From positions 2,294,001 through 2,358,000 of the forward strand of contig NZ_CP049366.1 of assembly GCF_014058425.1 (NCBI RefSeq): a stretch of DNA of 64,000 bases. Direction: 5' to 3'. A program made the translations under genes and the position numbers. The notes beneath the pieces are model-generated. The model was not told the DNA's origin. It saw only the letters and a list, made by a program, of their open reading frames with translations, and ran no database searches. This stretch comes from Companilactobacillus pabuli. Lineage in GTDB: Bacteria; Bacillota; Bacilli; Lactobacillales; Lactobacillaceae. The number at the start of each line of letters is the position of its first letter. The first letter of the stretch is position 1. This document shows, piece by piece, positions 29,158 to 35,508 of this stretch.

Positions 29158-29284
29158 GCAAAACAAAAAGAGGTTCTTTATTAAGTTAGGTTATTGTTAG
29201 ATATCGTCGTCTGGAGCATCCATAAAGCTGCCACTACCGACTGAATAATGGCATCTATTATTTATTCAAATTAATACAAAATCA

Positions 29285-29341
29285 AAATAAGCATCTATTC
29301 AGATATAGTCGATTAACTATTATCTGAATAGATGCTTATTT
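29285..29341. repeat. Long near-perfect inverted repeat after ppk1
   Basis: The arms 29285-29309 and 29316-29341 pair over 25 bp with a single bulged base and a 6-nt loop. Only three T follow on the plus strand, so it is a weak candidate terminator for the ppk1 transcript. It lies about 30 bp before structured element copy A. The stretch 29158-29284 shows nothing recognisable. Confidence 0.75.
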
Positions 29342-29373
29342 GGTTGATCCTATAAAAATTGAAAATCACTATT

Positions 29374-29541
29374 TAGTCCGGAATAGCAAAGAAAATTGGC
29401 TCAGTAGTGAGATTATTCTTAGCAACTTGTTGCTTAGAATAAGGCCGAGTTTTGAGATTTTGCGCACTTGGTTTATGCAAAAGCTCAAAATCGTGCCCAC
29501 AACGTTTTCGCCAAATTTTCTTTGCTATGGAGGACGGAACT
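29374..29541 (+). repeat. Structured dispersed element, copy A
   Basis: One of three related intergenic elements of about 170 bp. Helices: outer AGTCCG (29375-29380) with CGGAACT (29535-29541); a 17-bp P1 (29383-29399 with 29511-29528, one bulge); a 3-bp GTG/CAC helix in the junction; hairpin P2 (29413-29442), 14 bp with one T-T mismatch; and hairpin P3 (29446-29493) starting CGA-G-TTTTGAG. The sequence of P1 differs wholly from copies B and C, yet pairing is kept, so selection acts on the fold. It may be a structured RNA, a recombination site or a small mobile element. The orientation follows copy B. Confidence 0.8.
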
Positions 29542-29560
29542 TTACACCAATCTAAGTTTG

Positions 29561-30466
29561 TTAGTCGTTAAAGTTACCTGATTCAACATCTTTAATGAAT
29601 TGTTCCAAGTGATCGAAGTAAACAGGAGCATTATCGATCATGTGGTGGTGACCACCGTTTGGAGTTGTAACTAAACGTGCATGTGGAATTTCCTTTTGCA
29701 TAATCTTAGCAGTAGAAATAGGCATTGTTTCGTGTTCACCAAAAGTTAATAATGTAGGAACAGTGATTTCCTTAAGGTGTTTTCTGAAGTGCCAATCCTT
29801 TAATTTACCAGTAATAACGAATTCGTTGTCACCTTGGAATGTGTTGTAAACAGGAACGGACATTGTATCAATTAAGTGTCTGATAGCTGTTGGTTGTTTA
29901 CGATCAACATATTCGGCGTTTAGGATGTCAACATAGCTTTGGTATGTTGGATCTGATAATTCGTTTTTAGCTTCGATGTCTTGCATGTATTTAACTTTGT
30001 CAGGACCTAAAGTATCAAGACGACATTGGTTAACGTTCTTAACGTATTCGTCAATTTCGTCGACCATACTTGAGATGATAGCACCCTTTAGATGTTGACC
30101 ATATTTAGCAGCGTACATTTGAACTAAAGCGCCACCCCATGATTGTCCAATGAGATAGAAGTTATCTAGTCCCAATTTTTGTCTAACTTCTTCAACTTCT
30201 TCTAGGAAGTAGTCGTAAGTTAGGTATTTTTTAGCAATTTCTGGATCAGAATAGTCGGGTTGGTCTGAATACCATGAGCCAAGTTGATCGTACATTGTAA
30301 CTTGTACGCCAAGGTCAGCTAATTTTTCACCGAAGTTTTCCCAGTATTCGTGGTTACCACCAGGTCCACCGTGGAGACAAAGTAGTTTGATGTCACCGTG
30401 TCCTTGTGTATTAGTCCACAAATGATATCCGTTGTCGAGAGTTAGGATTGTTGTCCCTTGTTTCAT
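29561..30466 (-). CDS. Prolyl aminopeptidase-like alpha/beta hydrolase
   Basis: A 301-residue serine peptidase of family S33. The oxyanion segment LCLHGGPGGNHEYW, the nucleophile elbow LIGQSWGGALVQ and the C-terminal GGHHHMIDN (catalytic His) match proline iminopeptidases (PepI/PepIP) of lactobacilli, which remove N-terminal proline from peptides in the cytoplasm. The ATG at 30466 is preferred over the one at 30487 because GGAAGGTGA lies just upstream. It stands alone. Confidence 0.85.
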   Translation of the reverse strand: MKQGTTILTLDNGYHLWTNTQGHGDIKLLCLHGGPGGNHEYWENFGEKLADLGVQVTMYDQLGSWYSDQPDYSDPEIAKKYLTYDYFLEEVEEVRQKLGLDNFYLIGQSWGGALVQMYAAKYGQHLKGAIISSMVDEIDEYVKNVNQCRLDTLGPDKVKYMQDIEAKNELSDPTYQSYVDILNAEYVDRKQPTAIRHLIDTMSVPVYNTFQGDNEFVITGKLKDWHFRKHLKEITVPTLLTFGEHETMPISTAKIMQKEIPHARLVTTPNGGHHHMIDNAPVYFDHLEQFIKDVESGNFND

Positions 30467-30657
30467 AAAAAAGTCACCTTCCTGCATGTAATAAGTATAA
30501 GTATATATCTATCCATTAGTTTATTTCAAATAAAGCTATAATGCTACTTTAATACTTCTAATGAAAATAAATTCGATAATTTGAGAAACTTGTCTTATTA
30601 TTTCCAGAGAAAGATATTAATATGATAAAATTGGTATATGTTAAAGGGGACGATATG

Positions 30658-31974
30658 ATGAAAAAGGTTTTAATTAGTCTATTGTCTGTGGGGATGCTTT
30701 TGGGAATATTTGGTGTGGTAGGTCTGAACGATACGGGCTCACCCAATGTATTAGAAGAAACAGTTCAAGCAGATACAAACGATAGCGATAATAAAACAAT
30801 TAATTATGAAGTTTATAAGGAAAATTCCAATACTTTGTCACCGATGAATACTTTGTTTACTAAGAGTGCGACGATAGTTCCTAATAATGATGGGACTTAT
30901 AAAGTTGTCATGACTGCTCGTGTCAGTAATATCAGTAGTTTGACAATTTCTACTATTAATAATCAAACGCCTAAGGTTACATCAAAGGATAATAATCATC
31001 TGCAAATTAGTTTTACAATTGATAGTTTGAATGATTTGGACAAAGATATTCCAGCAACGGTGCAAACTAAATTGTTGGTATTAAACGTTGATAAGCAAAA
31101 TGTTACATTCAAATTCGATATGAGTTCATTAGATGATCCAAATTCACAAACTTTGGCTGATAGTCTCAATAAAATTACTCGAGCAGAGAATAATGTTACT
31201 AACACAGCTAATGATGCTAAGACATTGTTGAATGATCTTAAAGCAAGTGATGATTCTGACAATGATATCATTGCCACCCCAAATGAAGATGACGATGATA
31301 CCACTCAAGATAGTAATGACACTGACACCAACGATTCAACTGATAATCAAATGCCTAAGACTATTTTGAAAGAATTGACGTATCAAATTTCTAAAAATAA
31401 TGGTGACGGTTCGTTGATTTCACCTTACTTCACTAATACAGCTAAGGTCATGCAAAATTCTGATGGAACTTATTATGTAGAAGCAACAATCAAATATCCT
31501 AAGAAATTTGGTAATACTGCTTTTGAAATCAATGCCATCAATGGTCAAAAACCATTTAATTTAACCTTCAAGAGTGAAGGCGACAGCAACTATATTACTT
31601 TTGATTTTCCAATTAAGAAACTAACTGATTTGAGTAATTTGATTCCAGGAGATATTTCTTTAAACATTCCGGATTTTGGTTTGGATAAAGATTTAAACTT
31701 CGATTTGAATTTTGGGAGTTTAAACCCTTCCGATTTATCTAGTTTGTTAGATAGTTCTAGTTCTAATTCAGATGATACTTCTGGTTTAATTTCTGATTTA
31801 GGTAATTTGAGTAATATTGGCGATGTACAGACGGTTAAAGATGAAGACAATAAATCAAAAACTGCCACGTTGCCACAAACCGGTAGTGAATCAACTGATA
31901 TCGTTTTGGTCATAGCTGGTCTAGTCGTTTTATTGTGGCTAGTTTTGTTAAAAGGAATAACTTTGAAACGTTAA
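30658..31974 (+). CDS. LPxTG-anchored surface protein with two NEAT-like domains
   Basis: A 438-residue cell-wall protein. A signal peptide (KKVLISLLSVGMLLGIFGVV) is followed by two similar domains of about 110 residues, each opening with Y-x-V/I-x-K and containing N/SDGTYxV, as in NEAT domains. An Asp/Thr/Asn-rich linker lies between them. The C-terminus has the sortase motif LPQTG, a hydrophobic helix and a basic tail. NEAT domains can bind haem; I do not see the typical YxxxY haem-iron motif, so these may bind something else. The start at 30658 (or 30655) fits AAAGGGGA. A terminator follows. Confidence 0.7.
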   Translation: MKKVLISLLSVGMLLGIFGVVGLNDTGSPNVLEETVQADTNDSDNKTINYEVYKENSNTLSPMNTLFTKSATIVPNNDGTYKVVMTARVSNISSLTISTINNQTPKVTSKDNNHLQISFTIDSLNDLDKDIPATVQTKLLVLNVDKQNVTFKFDMSSLDDPNSQTLADSLNKITRAENNVTNTANDAKTLLNDLKASDDSDNDIIATPNEDDDDTTQDSNDTDTNDSTDNQMPKTILKELTYQISKNNGDGSLISPYFTNTAKVMQNSDGTYYVEATIKYPKKFGNTAFEINAINGQKPFNLTFKSEGDSNYITFDFPIKKLTDLSNLIPGDISLNIPDFGLDKDLNFDLNFGSLNPSDLSSLLDSSSSNSDDTSGLISDLGNLSNIGDVQTVKDEDNKSKTATLPQTGSESTDIVLVIAGLVVLLWLVLLKGITLKR

Positions 31975-31991
31975 AATGATTTGCAAAAATG

Positions 31992-32023
31992 AGTGGATTC
32001 ATGAAAATGAATCTACTTTTTTT
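31992..32023 (+). terminator. Terminator after the LPxTG protein gene
   Basis: AGTGGATTCAT pairs with ATGAATCTACT around GAAA, followed by T7. Confidence 0.85.
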
Positions 32024-32116
32024 ATTATTAAAAATAATCCAAAAACTGTTTTTCTAGATTAGAATATGTTAATAATAGTTTATTAAGACAAAATCTACCA
32101 TTTGGAGGGAGCCAGC

Positions 32117-32881
32117 ATGGAGACAATCACAGCAACAGAAATTGTCACTCTTTGTGGTCAAGTGGGTACGATTCTACTAGAAAATGGAGCGGAAACTGCT
32201 CGAGTTGAAAATACAGTTGAATATGTTGGAAGAGCTGCCAATTTACCGGTTGTTTGTCACGCGACAATGACTGGTATTTTTGTTAGTTCGGAAAAAGATG
32301 CGGCCACGAGAATTTTTAAAGTACGAGTGGGCGATTTCAACTTACAAAAAGTAGATGATATCAATACTTTATCAAGACAATTTTATAGACATGAGATTAC
32401 TTTCAAAAAACTCAAAAAAGAAGTGCAATTAGTCGATCATGAATCAAGAGACTTCTCTTGGTTGGTCAAATGTATCGGGGCAGGATTAGTTTCCATGCCA
32501 CCAATGCTTTTGTTTAAAGCTACTTGGGGTGATTTGTTTATCGCCTTTTTCGTAGGTATCATTGGCTATTTGATTTCCCAATTTGTAGCACATCACAATA
32601 AAACTCCTTATATACCAGTAGCTTTAGGAAGTTTGGCAATCAGTTTTATCGCTAATGTTTTAGGTGATATCGGAATTGCTCATGACGCTAACTATATTAT
32701 TATCAGTGCTTTGATGCCATTAGTTCCCGGAGTGCCAATGACTAACTCTCTACGAGAAATTATTGAACGAAATACAATTTCTGGATTGGTTCGAGCAACG
32801 GATGCAATTATGTCGGGTATTTCTATCGGTAGCGGTGTGATCGTCGGACAAATTTTAATGCACACAATTTGGGGAGGTTAA
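32117..32881 (+). CDS. Threonine/serine exporter, ThrE N-terminal-type subunit
   Basis: A 254-residue protein of the ThrE N-terminal family. A cytosolic N-terminal part with LLENGAETARVENTVEYV precedes five or so membrane helices containing MPLVPGVPMTNSLREII, which is typical. In many Firmicutes ThrE is split into two genes, as here. Start ATG 32117 follows GGAGGGAG; the TTG at 32102 lies upstream of that site. The partner gene begins 2 bp after the stop. Function as an amino-acid exporter is by family. Confidence 0.88.
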   Translation: METITATEIVTLCGQVGTILLENGAETARVENTVEYVGRAANLPVVCHATMTGIFVSSEKDAATRIFKVRVGDFNLQKVDDINTLSRQFYRHEITFKKLKKEVQLVDHESRDFSWLVKCIGAGLVSMPPMLLFKATWGDLFIAFFVGIIGYLISQFVAHHNKTPYIPVALGSLAISFIANVLGDIGIAHDANYIIISALMPLVPGVPMTNSLREIIERNTISGLVRATDAIMSGISIGSGVIVGQILMHTIWGG

Positions 32882-32883
32882 TC

Positions 32884-33348
32884 ATGGCAATGCAATTGAT
32901 TTATGGCTTTATTTTTGGCTTTTTGTCTAGCGTTGGTTTCGGTATTATTACCAATAATCCACGGCGGACTCTTGTTCCTGCAGGAATTGTTGGAGCGTTG
33001 GCATGGATAGTTTATATTCTCGTTGAATCAATCAATCATGGTCTAATTATGTCCAACCTCTTGGGAGCAGTCGTGATTGGTCTGTTGGGAAATTTATGTG
33101 CTATTTTAGTGCGAGCACCAGTTAATATTTTTTACGTACCTTGTTTGGTTTCACTAGTTCCGGGGGCTATTTTGTATGATAGTATGAAGAATTTTACTTT
33201 GGGAAAAGACGCCTTGGCAGCCTATGGATTTGTGAAAGCTTTGACTGTGGGGATGTCTTTGGCAATTGGTTTTATCATTGCGGAAACGATTGCTAATAAA
33301 ATTTATCCTCGCTTGAAACGGTATTTGTTAGAAAGAGAAAGTAAATAA
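32884..33348 (+). CDS. Threonine/serine exporter, second subunit (DUF3815/ThrE_2)
   Basis: A 154-residue membrane protein with about four helices and the segment VPCLVSLVPGAILYDSM, which mirrors the LVPGVPM segment of its partner. It matches the small C-terminal half of split ThrE exporters. The ATG at 32884 follows GGGGAGG, which lies within the end of the upstream gene, so the two are coupled. Confidence 0.87.
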   Translation: MAMQLIYGFIFGFLSSVGFGIITNNPRRTLVPAGIVGALAWIVYILVESINHGLIMSNLLGAVVIGLLGNLCAILVRAPVNIFYVPCLVSLVPGAILYDSMKNFTLGKDALAAYGFVKALTVGMSLAIGFIIAETIANKIYPRLKRYLLERESK

Positions 33349-33421
33349 TTCCGGCTATTTATAAAAAAAGTCTTACGTTGTACTCTATTCATATATAGAA
33401 AGAAGTATATTGAGGGAATAT

Positions 33422-34981
33422 ATGAGAGAGACGTTATTTAAATTTAATCATCGGGCTATAAAGATAATTTTTTATATCTTCTTTACGGCTACGTTTATTT
33501 TCGCTTTGACATCGTCCAATTTGATTCTGGGGGATAATCCGATTACCAAAATTGGTACAACGGCTTTTACGACGATAGTGTTACTGATATTTGGAGCGTT
33601 ATTTACTATTTGTTACGTCAATCATTCAGTCAGAGATTTTTTACTGTGGCTTTTAGTTGATCGAAGTTGGATTACAGCGACAGTTTGTTTTATAGTGGCG
33701 ATTTTACTGCAAATTGGTTTCGTTTCATTGATTCACTATGGCGTTCACGATGATGTTGGAGCAGTTCATGCTGCTTTGACGAATACCAAAGACGTCAATA
33801 TTATTGGTTATTTCAGCGTTAACCCTAATAACTTGGGATTATTGTTGTTACAGCACCAAATCGCTTTGATTTTTCACCATACATCATGGTTGTTCTTTGA
33901 TTTTATGACCATTTTTATGGTGGATTTAGCAGCGCTGTTCAATATAGGCTCTGTCTTTGTGATAGACAAATCCAAAATTCCGATTCTTTTGTATCTTCAA
34001 GCTATGTGGATGGCACTTTTTCCCGCAATAGTTGTTCCATATACAGATACTTGGGTTTTGCCATTCGTGGCGTTTTATATTCTTTGTTATGTCATCGTTG
34101 CTCGATCAGATATGGGCAAAGCTTTGAAATTAATTTTTGCTATTTTAGGTGGTCTCACAGTTGGAGCAACGTATTTTATCAAACCATCTGGAATTGTGCC
34201 GATGATAGCAATCATAATTATTGAATTAGTTAGTTTGCTTAATAAAAACAAAAAACATTGGTTCTGGTTATTTTTAGTAACAAGTATTTTTGCTCTCAGT
34301 GTTGGTGGCAGTTACTACAAAATCAACCACATAATTGACAATCAGACGTATATTCATGTTAATACTTTCCGGGCTAAACCGATGATTCACTTCATCAATA
34401 TGGGATTGTCTAAAACCGGTGGTTATAATGCTAAAGATTCATATAAGATGGTTATTTTGATCAATAAAAAAGACCGAATCGATTATTCAGTTAAATCCAT
34501 CAAGAAACGTCTGCACAAAATGGGCTTTACCGGCTACATTAAATTTTTGATTGTAAAGCAAAAGAATAATACTTCTGATGGAACTTTTGGCTGGCTACGT
34601 GAAGGTATTTCGGCACCTAGTAAATACACTCCAGATAAGCATGGGTTCAAGGGAAAATTGGAGAACTTTGTACTATTGTATGGTAACAATGTTGGAGACT
34701 TCCGTTTCCTTACCCAGATTTTTTGGTGTATTTGGTTAGGATTGATTTTCTTCGCATGGAAAGATAATCGAAAAATCGTACAAATATTGCGATTGTCTTT
34801 AGTCGGTGGCTTTATTTTCTTGCTGATCTTTGAAGGTGGCAGAAGTCGTTATTTGATTCAATTTTTGCCAGTGTTCTTGATTTTGGCAACTTTGGAATGG
34901 AAAACTTCAATTCAGCAAATTAGACGATTGTTGAAGTGGAATCTTAATCCCGGTCCTAAGCATCGGAAAAATGTACTTTAG
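33422..34981 (+). CDS. Polytopic membrane protein, glycosyltransferase-C-like
   Basis: A 519-residue protein with about eleven membrane helices and an extracellular loop between the eighth and ninth. HYGVHDDVGAVHAA early in the protein resembles the first loop of GT39/ArnT-like mannosyltransferases, where an acidic pair is catalytic, and GGRSRYLIQFLPVFLIL near the end is also typical. It would then transfer sugars from a lipid-linked donor at the outer membrane face. The donor and target are unknown. ATG 33422 fits GAGGG 6 nt upstream. Element copy C begins 17 bp after the stop. Confidence 0.65.
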   Translation: MRETLFKFNHRAIKIIFYIFFTATFIFALTSSNLILGDNPITKIGTTAFTTIVLLIFGALFTICYVNHSVRDFLLWLLVDRSWITATVCFIVAILLQIGFVSLIHYGVHDDVGAVHAALTNTKDVNIIGYFSVNPNNLGLLLLQHQIALIFHHTSWLFFDFMTIFMVDLAALFNIGSVFVIDKSKIPILLYLQAMWMALFPAIVVPYTDTWVLPFVAFYILCYVIVARSDMGKALKLIFAILGGLTVGATYFIKPSGIVPMIAIIIIELVSLLNKNKKHWFWLFLVTSIFALSVGGSYYKINHIIDNQTYIHVNTFRAKPMIHFINMGLSKTGGYNAKDSYKMVILINKKDRIDYSVKSIKKRLHKMGFTGYIKFLIVKQKNNTSDGTFGWLREGISAPSKYTPDKHGFKGKLENFVLLYGNNVGDFRFLTQIFWCIWLGLIFFAWKDNRKIVQILRLSLVGGFIFLLIFEGGRSRYLIQFLPVFLILATLEWKTSIQQIRRLLKWNLNPGPKHRKNVL

Positions 34982-34997
34982 GTATTGTTTATGATGC

Positions 34998-35162
34998 ATG
35001 CCGTCGTCCGTTCGGCCCTGAAAAACGCTGGAACGCTGCCGACACAACTTGAAACCAATCCCAAAATCGGGGATTGTTTCCAAGATTGGTCTTGTCCTAA
35101 GCGATAAATCGCTAAGGACAATTTGGCGGCTGAGCATTTTTCAGGACCTCGCTCCCGACTAG
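34998..35162 (-). repeat. Structured dispersed element, copy C
   Basis: Minus-strand copy of the element. P1 pairs 35133-35145 with 35016-35029 (CTGAAAAATGCT with AGCGTTTTTCAG). P2 is at 35092-35121, a 14-bp stem with the same T-T mismatch as in copies A and B. P3 is at 35048-35084 with bulges. The junction strands GCTCAGCCGCCA and TCGGCAGCGTTCCAGC are nearly identical to copy B, and the ends GTCG (35156-35159) and CGAC (35003-35006) pair. Stem sequences differ from copy B throughout P2 and P3 while remaining complementary. Confidence 0.8.
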
Positions 35163-35206
35163 ATAGTGATTTCTATCTTTATATAAATAACTTCAGAAAA
35201 TTAATA

Positions 35207-35264
35207 GAAGATATTATTAGAATTGCAGTATATTGCTGTGGTTCTGGTAGTATCTTCTTTTTTT
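35207..35264 (+). terminator. Strong terminator between element copies C and B
   Basis: A 22-bp stem rich in G-U pairs (left arm 35207-35228, right arm 35236-35257) is followed by T7. It would end plus-strand transcripts, for example read-through from the membrane protein gene across element C. No gene is recognised in 35166-35339. Confidence 0.8.
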
Positions 35265-35339
35265 ATGTAATGCTACAAAGAAATAGAGTAGTTATTCAGA
35301 AGGTATGTGTCTAATTCTATCCAAATAGAAATCGGACTC

Positions 35340-35508
35340 TAGTCGGGAGTAAAAGCCCCGTGATGGCTCAGCCGCCAGATTTTACTTAGCAACTTGTTGC
35401 TTAGTAAAAGGCCTAGTTTTGAGATTTTGCGTCTTTGGGGCCATGCAAAAGCTCAAAATAGTGCCGGCAGCGTTCCAGCCAATCACAGGGCTTTTGCGGA
35501 CGACGGCA
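35340..35508 (+). repeat. Structured dispersed element, copy B
   Basis: Plus-strand copy. P1 pairs 35351-35366 with 35479-35495, with a single bulge at the same place as in copy A. P2 is at 35380-35409 (TTTTACTTAGCAAC and its complement, one T-T mismatch). P3 is at 35413-35461, beginning CTA-G-TTTTGAG where copy A has CGA-G-TTTTGAG, with TAG against TCG on the other side. Outer GTCG (35342-35345) pairs with CGAC (35501-35504). It points away from copy C and towards the metal-ATPase operon. Confidence 0.8.

Follow-up and report, generated by a model that had tools for sequence, protein, structure and literature searches.

The 64,000-nt stretch of the Companilactobacillus pabuli genome analyzed here (contig NZ_CP049366.1, positions 2,294,001 to 2,358,000 of the forward strand; hereafter the window) carries three copies, named A, C and B, of a folded element of about 170 bp, which a sequence-only reading had put forward as a candidate structured RNA family or as a folded-DNA recombination or mobile element. 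All three are real: a covariance model (R1) recovers each of them, and their folds are far more stable than those of shuffled sequences (z scores below are relative to dinucleotide shuffles for A, B and C). R1 was trained on copies that include A, B and C, so its matches in the window confirm the coordinates and are no independent test. They do not represent independent insertions: one composite has C and B as its arms, and another has A and a remnant at 29202-29245, with arms typed A to D by the sequence of their P1 stem. The features of the two composites are as follows.

29172-29189, plus strand: terminal inverted repeat at the left end of the D/A unit, GGTTCTTTATTAAGTTAG, with one mismatch to the family repeat GGTTCTTTCTTAAGTTAG
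29202-29245 (44 bp), minus strand: remnant of a D arm that retains the foot and P1 and has lost the core; R1 17.7 bits, E 0.0017
29286-29342, no strand: D/A spacer hairpin AATAAGCATCTATTCAGATA..TATCTGAATAGATGCTTATT; -33.4 kcal/mol, z -9.7
29372-29539, plus strand: copy A, an A-type arm folding as a three-way junction; R1 169 bits, fold z -5.8
34999-35163, minus strand: copy C, the C-type arm of the C/B unit; R1 159 bits, fold z -6.7
35206-35262, plus strand: intrinsic terminator in the C/B spacer, a 25-bp stem followed by a T tract, called by the terminator scan; -29.8 kcal/mol, z -9.2
35338-35508, plus strand: copy B, the B-type arm of the C/B unit; R1 187 bits, fold z -5.0

The remnant sequence, CAGTCGGTAGTGGCAGCTTTATGGATGCTC..GACGACG, is the same as in intact D arms, and only 0.11 matches like the left D/A repeat are expected by chance per window. 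Judged by eye, the D/A spacer hairpin is terminator-like in both directions; the consensus terminator scan calls no terminator there. The stem of the C/B spacer terminator has many G-U pairs on the gene strand, and copy C begins 17 nt past the stop codon of the gene at 33410-34981.

In the complete genome, a blastn search with copy B finds about 40 places, while R1 finds 120 matches, 103 of them longer than 140 nt and about 17 partial. Every one of the 36 clusters of neighboring matches contains a head-to-head pair (minus, then plus strand), two of them with an extra weak plus-strand match. Typable full-length pairs combine a C with a B arm or a D with an A arm, except for two clusters that join A with B; in three further pairs the second arm is too short, truncated or diverged for typing. 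The element of about 170 bp that the sequence-only reading took as the unit corresponds to a single arm; units usually consist of two different arms set head to head on either side of a spacer and, in the D/A subfamily, carry ISL3-type inverted repeats. Spacers measure 43-307 bp and many contain a terminator-like hairpin. The arms are mostly intergenic, lying between convergent gene pairs more often than between divergent ones (24 versus 10, by a simple open reading frame call), and the predicted frames overlapped by five clusters are all short frames on the element itself, leaving the approximately 120 arms with no coding capacity. Along the chromosome (G000, 1-2435232), about 102 of the 120 arms lie within 0-750 kb and 1.75-2.43 Mb, with sparse occurrence between.

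Conservation of the fold is strong. Among 28 diverse copies from the C. pabuli genome, 96.8% of 1519 pair cells of the three-way junction are standard pairs, compared with 77.7% after shuffling, which ignores the kinship of the copies, and 33-45% when the partner is slid, a control that preserves it. Cells changed on both sides number 316 versus 90 in shuffled alignments, and 39 of the 55 pairs show a double change, counts that do not represent independent events since copies within one genome are related. The covariation anticipated from copies A, B and C thus holds against both controls, and the changes first quoted for them are correct: the outer P3 pairs are CGA/TCG in A and CTA/TAG in B, the junction helix is GTG/CAC or GCC/GGC, and a T-T mismatch in P2 is present in all three. 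A few copies of the genome, L013 and L018 (CTAAGC) among them, have a pair in place of this mismatch. Each of the P1, P2 and P3 stems exists in a small number of discrete versions, which the copies combine as modules, and deletion derivatives have lost the core while retaining P1. Double changes mostly lead from one Watson-Crick pair to another, with G-U pairs making up 2.1% in this genome. Across genera, the unpaired core positions, the bulged A's and a GGA/GGA internal loop at the foot are conserved, and P2 covaries in distant genera as well. On the outward strand, at pairs that are at least 70% Watson-Crick, G-T exceeds A-C by 83:18 in a wide set of copies and by 91:32 in the C. pabuli genome, with p values that are nominal because the alignments were fitted to models and the copies are related; by arm type, the excess in this genome is clear for C and D arms and not seen for A arms. 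Because G-T exceeds A-C on this strand, it is probably the outward strand that folds, as RNA or as single-stranded DNA.

The D/A units are miniature inverted-repeat transposable elements (MITEs), with terminal inverted repeats, target duplications, no coding capacity and an autonomous relative with matching ends. The inverted repeat GGTTCTTTCTTAAGTTAG outside the D/A arms occurs at 39 places in the genome, compared with 8 for a reversed-pattern control, and both ends were found on 11 D/A units with no more than four mismatches per end. Taking these 11 units together with two insertions of a long ISL3-family insertion sequence (IS) as 13 sites, and at least six matching bases as a duplication, a target duplication of roughly 7 bp is present at 10 of 13 sites versus 5 of 156 mismatched flank pairs (permutation p<5e-5). 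Rejoined sites fold at -12.3 versus -6.8 kcal/mol (permutation p<5e-5). The duplications mostly lie in or near the loop of a host terminator hairpin, and at the clearest sites, such as L124 (AATTTCT) and L122 (AATTGAG), the duplicated bases form the loop itself. Target-site duplications, one of the signs of mobility to look for, thus appear in D/A units. Another, presence or absence at an orthologous site, is found at copy A: the corresponding site in C. futsaii and C. formosensis is empty and holds a plain terminator hairpin; in the window this hairpin no longer exists, and of the two repeats just the left one can be recognized. A C. kedongensis locus (L183, 6681-7214) has an arm pair right after the stop codon of pip, the gene whose end also adjoins copy A, and as C. 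kedongensis is a distant species, this gene end is likely a site of repeated use. Also in the window, the open reading frame at 30622-31974 has a signal-like start and an LPQTG-type C-terminal anchor and probably encodes a surface protein.

The family extends well beyond this species. R1 has matches in 34 of 36 genomes of the genus, two (G007 and G034) being without any arm. More distant copies have an extra fourth hairpin, and a second model (R2) built from them has matches in 116 of 398 Lactobacillaceae genomes, spread over 12 of 40 genera, and weak ones in genomes from two further families of the same order. The covariance search has produced about 100 more copies in the C. pabuli genome and relatives in other genera, and neither of the refuting conditions set in the sequence-only reading came true. 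In one weak-match genome, the S2 protein is closest to ribosome entries of Enterococcus faecalis. An Aerococcus tenax replicon carries another weak match, and because of it, the group of the genome G493, considered below, probably belongs to the Aerococcaceae. A class-wide sample of 300 genomes under strict filters gave no match beyond the C. pabuli genome itself, and plasmid and phage collections gave no blastn match to copy B.

Relatives that carry a transposase point to the ISL3 family (identified as PF01610 and NF033550). In the congeneric genomes G009 and G006, a long ISL3-family IS with a transposase of about 609 aa has ends, GGTTCTTTCTTAAACTTGG and GGTTCTTTCTCAAGTTTGG, that are similar to the D/A repeat, and it targets hairpin loops with 7-8-bp duplications (GTTTTGCC and CATCTGA). 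G493 contains eight R2 matches of about 205 nt, scoring 30-35 bits (E ~1e-6) when the genome was searched. In the five intact copies read, the weak arm relative is enclosed in an ISL3 IS about 1785 bp long, where it separates the gene of the 450-aa transposase from the right end; a sixth copy is interrupted by an inserted transposase gene. Duplications of 8 bp are readable at four sites of this IS, three of which are beside a terminator hairpin. The C. pabuli genome has its own resident ISL3 IS of about 1456 bp with a 418-aa transposase, present in about eight copies at intrinsic terminators (L366-L370); each of five sites that were read shows an 8-bp duplication (e.g. TTTTTATT, ACTCTTTT and TTTTGATT). 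Terminator targeting may be general for the ISL3 family in this genome. This resident IS was rejected as the direct partner of the D/A units, its ends GGTTCTAAACTTTCTGG / GGCTCTTTGTCAAATCG being unlike the D/A repeat, though some cross-mobilization may occur.

We consider it probable, at roughly 0.7, that copies A, B and C belong, as arms, to small MITE-like units that are non-autonomous and have no open reading frames, with ISL3-type mobilization of the D/A subfamily into terminators. A typical unit would consist of an outward arm, a spacer often containing a terminator-like hairpin, and a second outward arm, each arm being a three- or four-way junction of about 165-205 nt that covarying pairs appear to maintain. 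An ISL3-type transposase would move D/A units into terminators, and the terminator hairpin of the unit, where present, would limit the damage so that intergenic insertion is tolerated. More tentatively, the arm may act as a folded outward strand, and the units may be derivatives that retained the arm at both ends. As for its role, the position of the arm relative in the G493 IS suggests, speculatively, that the arm is most likely a structured 3′ element of a transposase transcript that was kept in the derivatives. A more active role, in which arm RNA or a folded strand at the end of an ISL3 element takes part in transposition, for example by guiding the transposase to terminator hairpins, seems highly improbable to us; if true, it would mean that a DDE transposon family uses structured nucleic acid for targeting.

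Several observations weigh against this reading. Neither the C/B units nor 16 arm pairs from further species, C. futsaii among them, show ISL3-type repeats or an interrupted host hairpin, and because of this the transposase link is shown for the D/A subfamily alone. Even there, 3 of the 13 sites are without a clear duplication, and D/A spacers of 45-56 bp lack the long hairpin. The intact long ISL3 IS occurs in only 2 of 398 Lactobacillaceae genomes and is absent from that of C. pabuli. Of the ISL3 loci examined, the G493 copies alone enclose an arm between their ends; the arms in G009 lie outside the IS, and the idea that the arm is a general part of ISL3 elements was rejected on these grounds. 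The R2 score of the G493 element itself is low, 34 bits (E ~4e-8), and its fold is longer. Finally, a promoter consensus scan of the window spacers and upstream of the window arms found no promoter that stands out.

The strength of the covariation, the unpaired core positions conserved across genera, the predominance of G-T over A-C on one strand and the GGA/GGA loop at the foot would all suit a stand-alone structured noncoding RNA, in which RNAs transcribed outward, starting in the spacer or arising by read-through, would act in trans or by binding a protein and mobility would be secondary. We find this rather unlikely, given that about 100 paired copies per genome with terminal repeats and duplications behave as mobile DNA and that a promoter signal is absent upstream of the window arms; divergent noncoding RNAs driven by a spacer promoter were rejected, since the window spacers have no conspicuous consensus promoter. 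The G-T asymmetry is also compatible with single-stranded DNA. The arm, with (G/C)TAG as its foot, might instead be a giant hairpin like those of repetitive extragenic palindromic (REP) sequences, and two inverted arms a REPIN-like element moved or cleaved by a Y1 (HUH) transposase. A (N)(G/C)TAG directly 5′ of the fold and the inverted pairing do recall GTAG-tagged REPs (PMC3733652). The target duplications and DDE-type terminal repeats fit the D/A units better, and with no Y1 transposase (PF01797) in the C. pabuli genome or in the arm-rich genomes G002, G003 and G006, a Y1 or REP-associated tyrosine transposase (RAYT) was rejected as partner and the whole account appears quite improbable. 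Of the possibilities named in the sequence-only reading, structured RNA and mobile element each stand in part, and folded-DNA recombination appears less likely, with no positive sign of it and no resident Y1 gene.

Complementarity could also persist without selection if template switching at hairpins were to correct quasi-palindromes and exchange entire stems between copies, producing double changes in one step. The modular combination of discrete P1, P2 and P3 versions and the scarcity of G-U intermediates (2.1% in this genome) agree with such a process. So does the C/B locus, where the sister species have the same spacer and a left arm with an A-type P1: the whole arm differs, and arms are therefore replaceable while the unit persists. 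Correction would, however, erase the mismatches, A bulges, GGA/GGA loop and junction bases that persist across many copies; being strand-neutral, it does not predict a G-T excess on one strand; and P2 covaries in distant genera as well. We therefore doubt that it accounts for the fold, though it could explain part of the double changes.

Rfam yielded zero matches above the gathering score in the window and at eight loci with distant copies, in agreement with the initial impression that this is not a named Rfam family, and a literature search returned no paper on the family in Companilactobacillus. The family, its multibranched fold, paired architecture and ISL3 link thus appear undescribed in Rfam and the literature searched. 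If the MITE-like reading is correct, a covarying multibranched element outside Rfam is present in between about a quarter and a third of the Lactobacillaceae genomes sampled, with about 100 copies in at least one of them and at least one subfamily entering terminators via their loops. This would open the questions of how mobile DNA uses terminators as safe sites and whether termination of neighboring genes gets re-tuned, and would pose that of why a mobile repeat holds on to a complex fold as its sequence changes. Copies within one genome would provide unusually rich data for separating structural selection from hairpin-templated correction.

The class to which these units belong, structured MITEs favoring terminators, is already known. 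REPs and REPINs (PMC3733652) share the palindromes, a GTAG-like foot, inverted pairs and a location mostly between or downstream of genes, and differ in being 20-40 bp long, compared with a multibranched arm of 165-205 nt in genomes with no resident RAYT/Y1 gene. The pneumococcal BOX, RUP and SPRITE repeats (PMC3049150, PMC10969869), compared by their descriptions only, are likewise modular, stem-loop-rich, intergenic and MITE-like with terminator-like members, and differ in fold, sequence and host group. With the long ISL3 IS, the D/A units share terminal repeats and target behavior, and the G493 IS contains an arm relative; unlike ISL3 elements, the units have no transposase gene, and nearly all examined ISL3 loci have no arm. 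By analogy, the nearest known kind would be the EFAR repeats of enterococci; two megaplasmids of E. raffinosus gave no match, a result limited to these replicons. De Gregorio et al. are said to have described EFAR in 2009 as mostly palindromic units of about 170 bp, assembled from interchangeable types, that integrate into stem-loops. Much of the target hairpin is reportedly lost on integration, and the fold is said to be two adjacent stem-loops. Set against this description, our family similarly has modular arms of about 170 bp and an A unit where sister species have a terminator hairpin, the stem-loop integration applying to the D/A subfamily and not to C/B units or the pairs of other species; it differs in the three- or four-way junction, shared core bases, head-to-head pairs and ISL3-type ends. 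EFAR has also been cited as a MITE (PMC3733652, ref. 22 there being De Gregorio et al. 2009, FEMS Microbiol Lett 292:7). Because the family resembles the EFAR repeats, its kind would not be wholly new.

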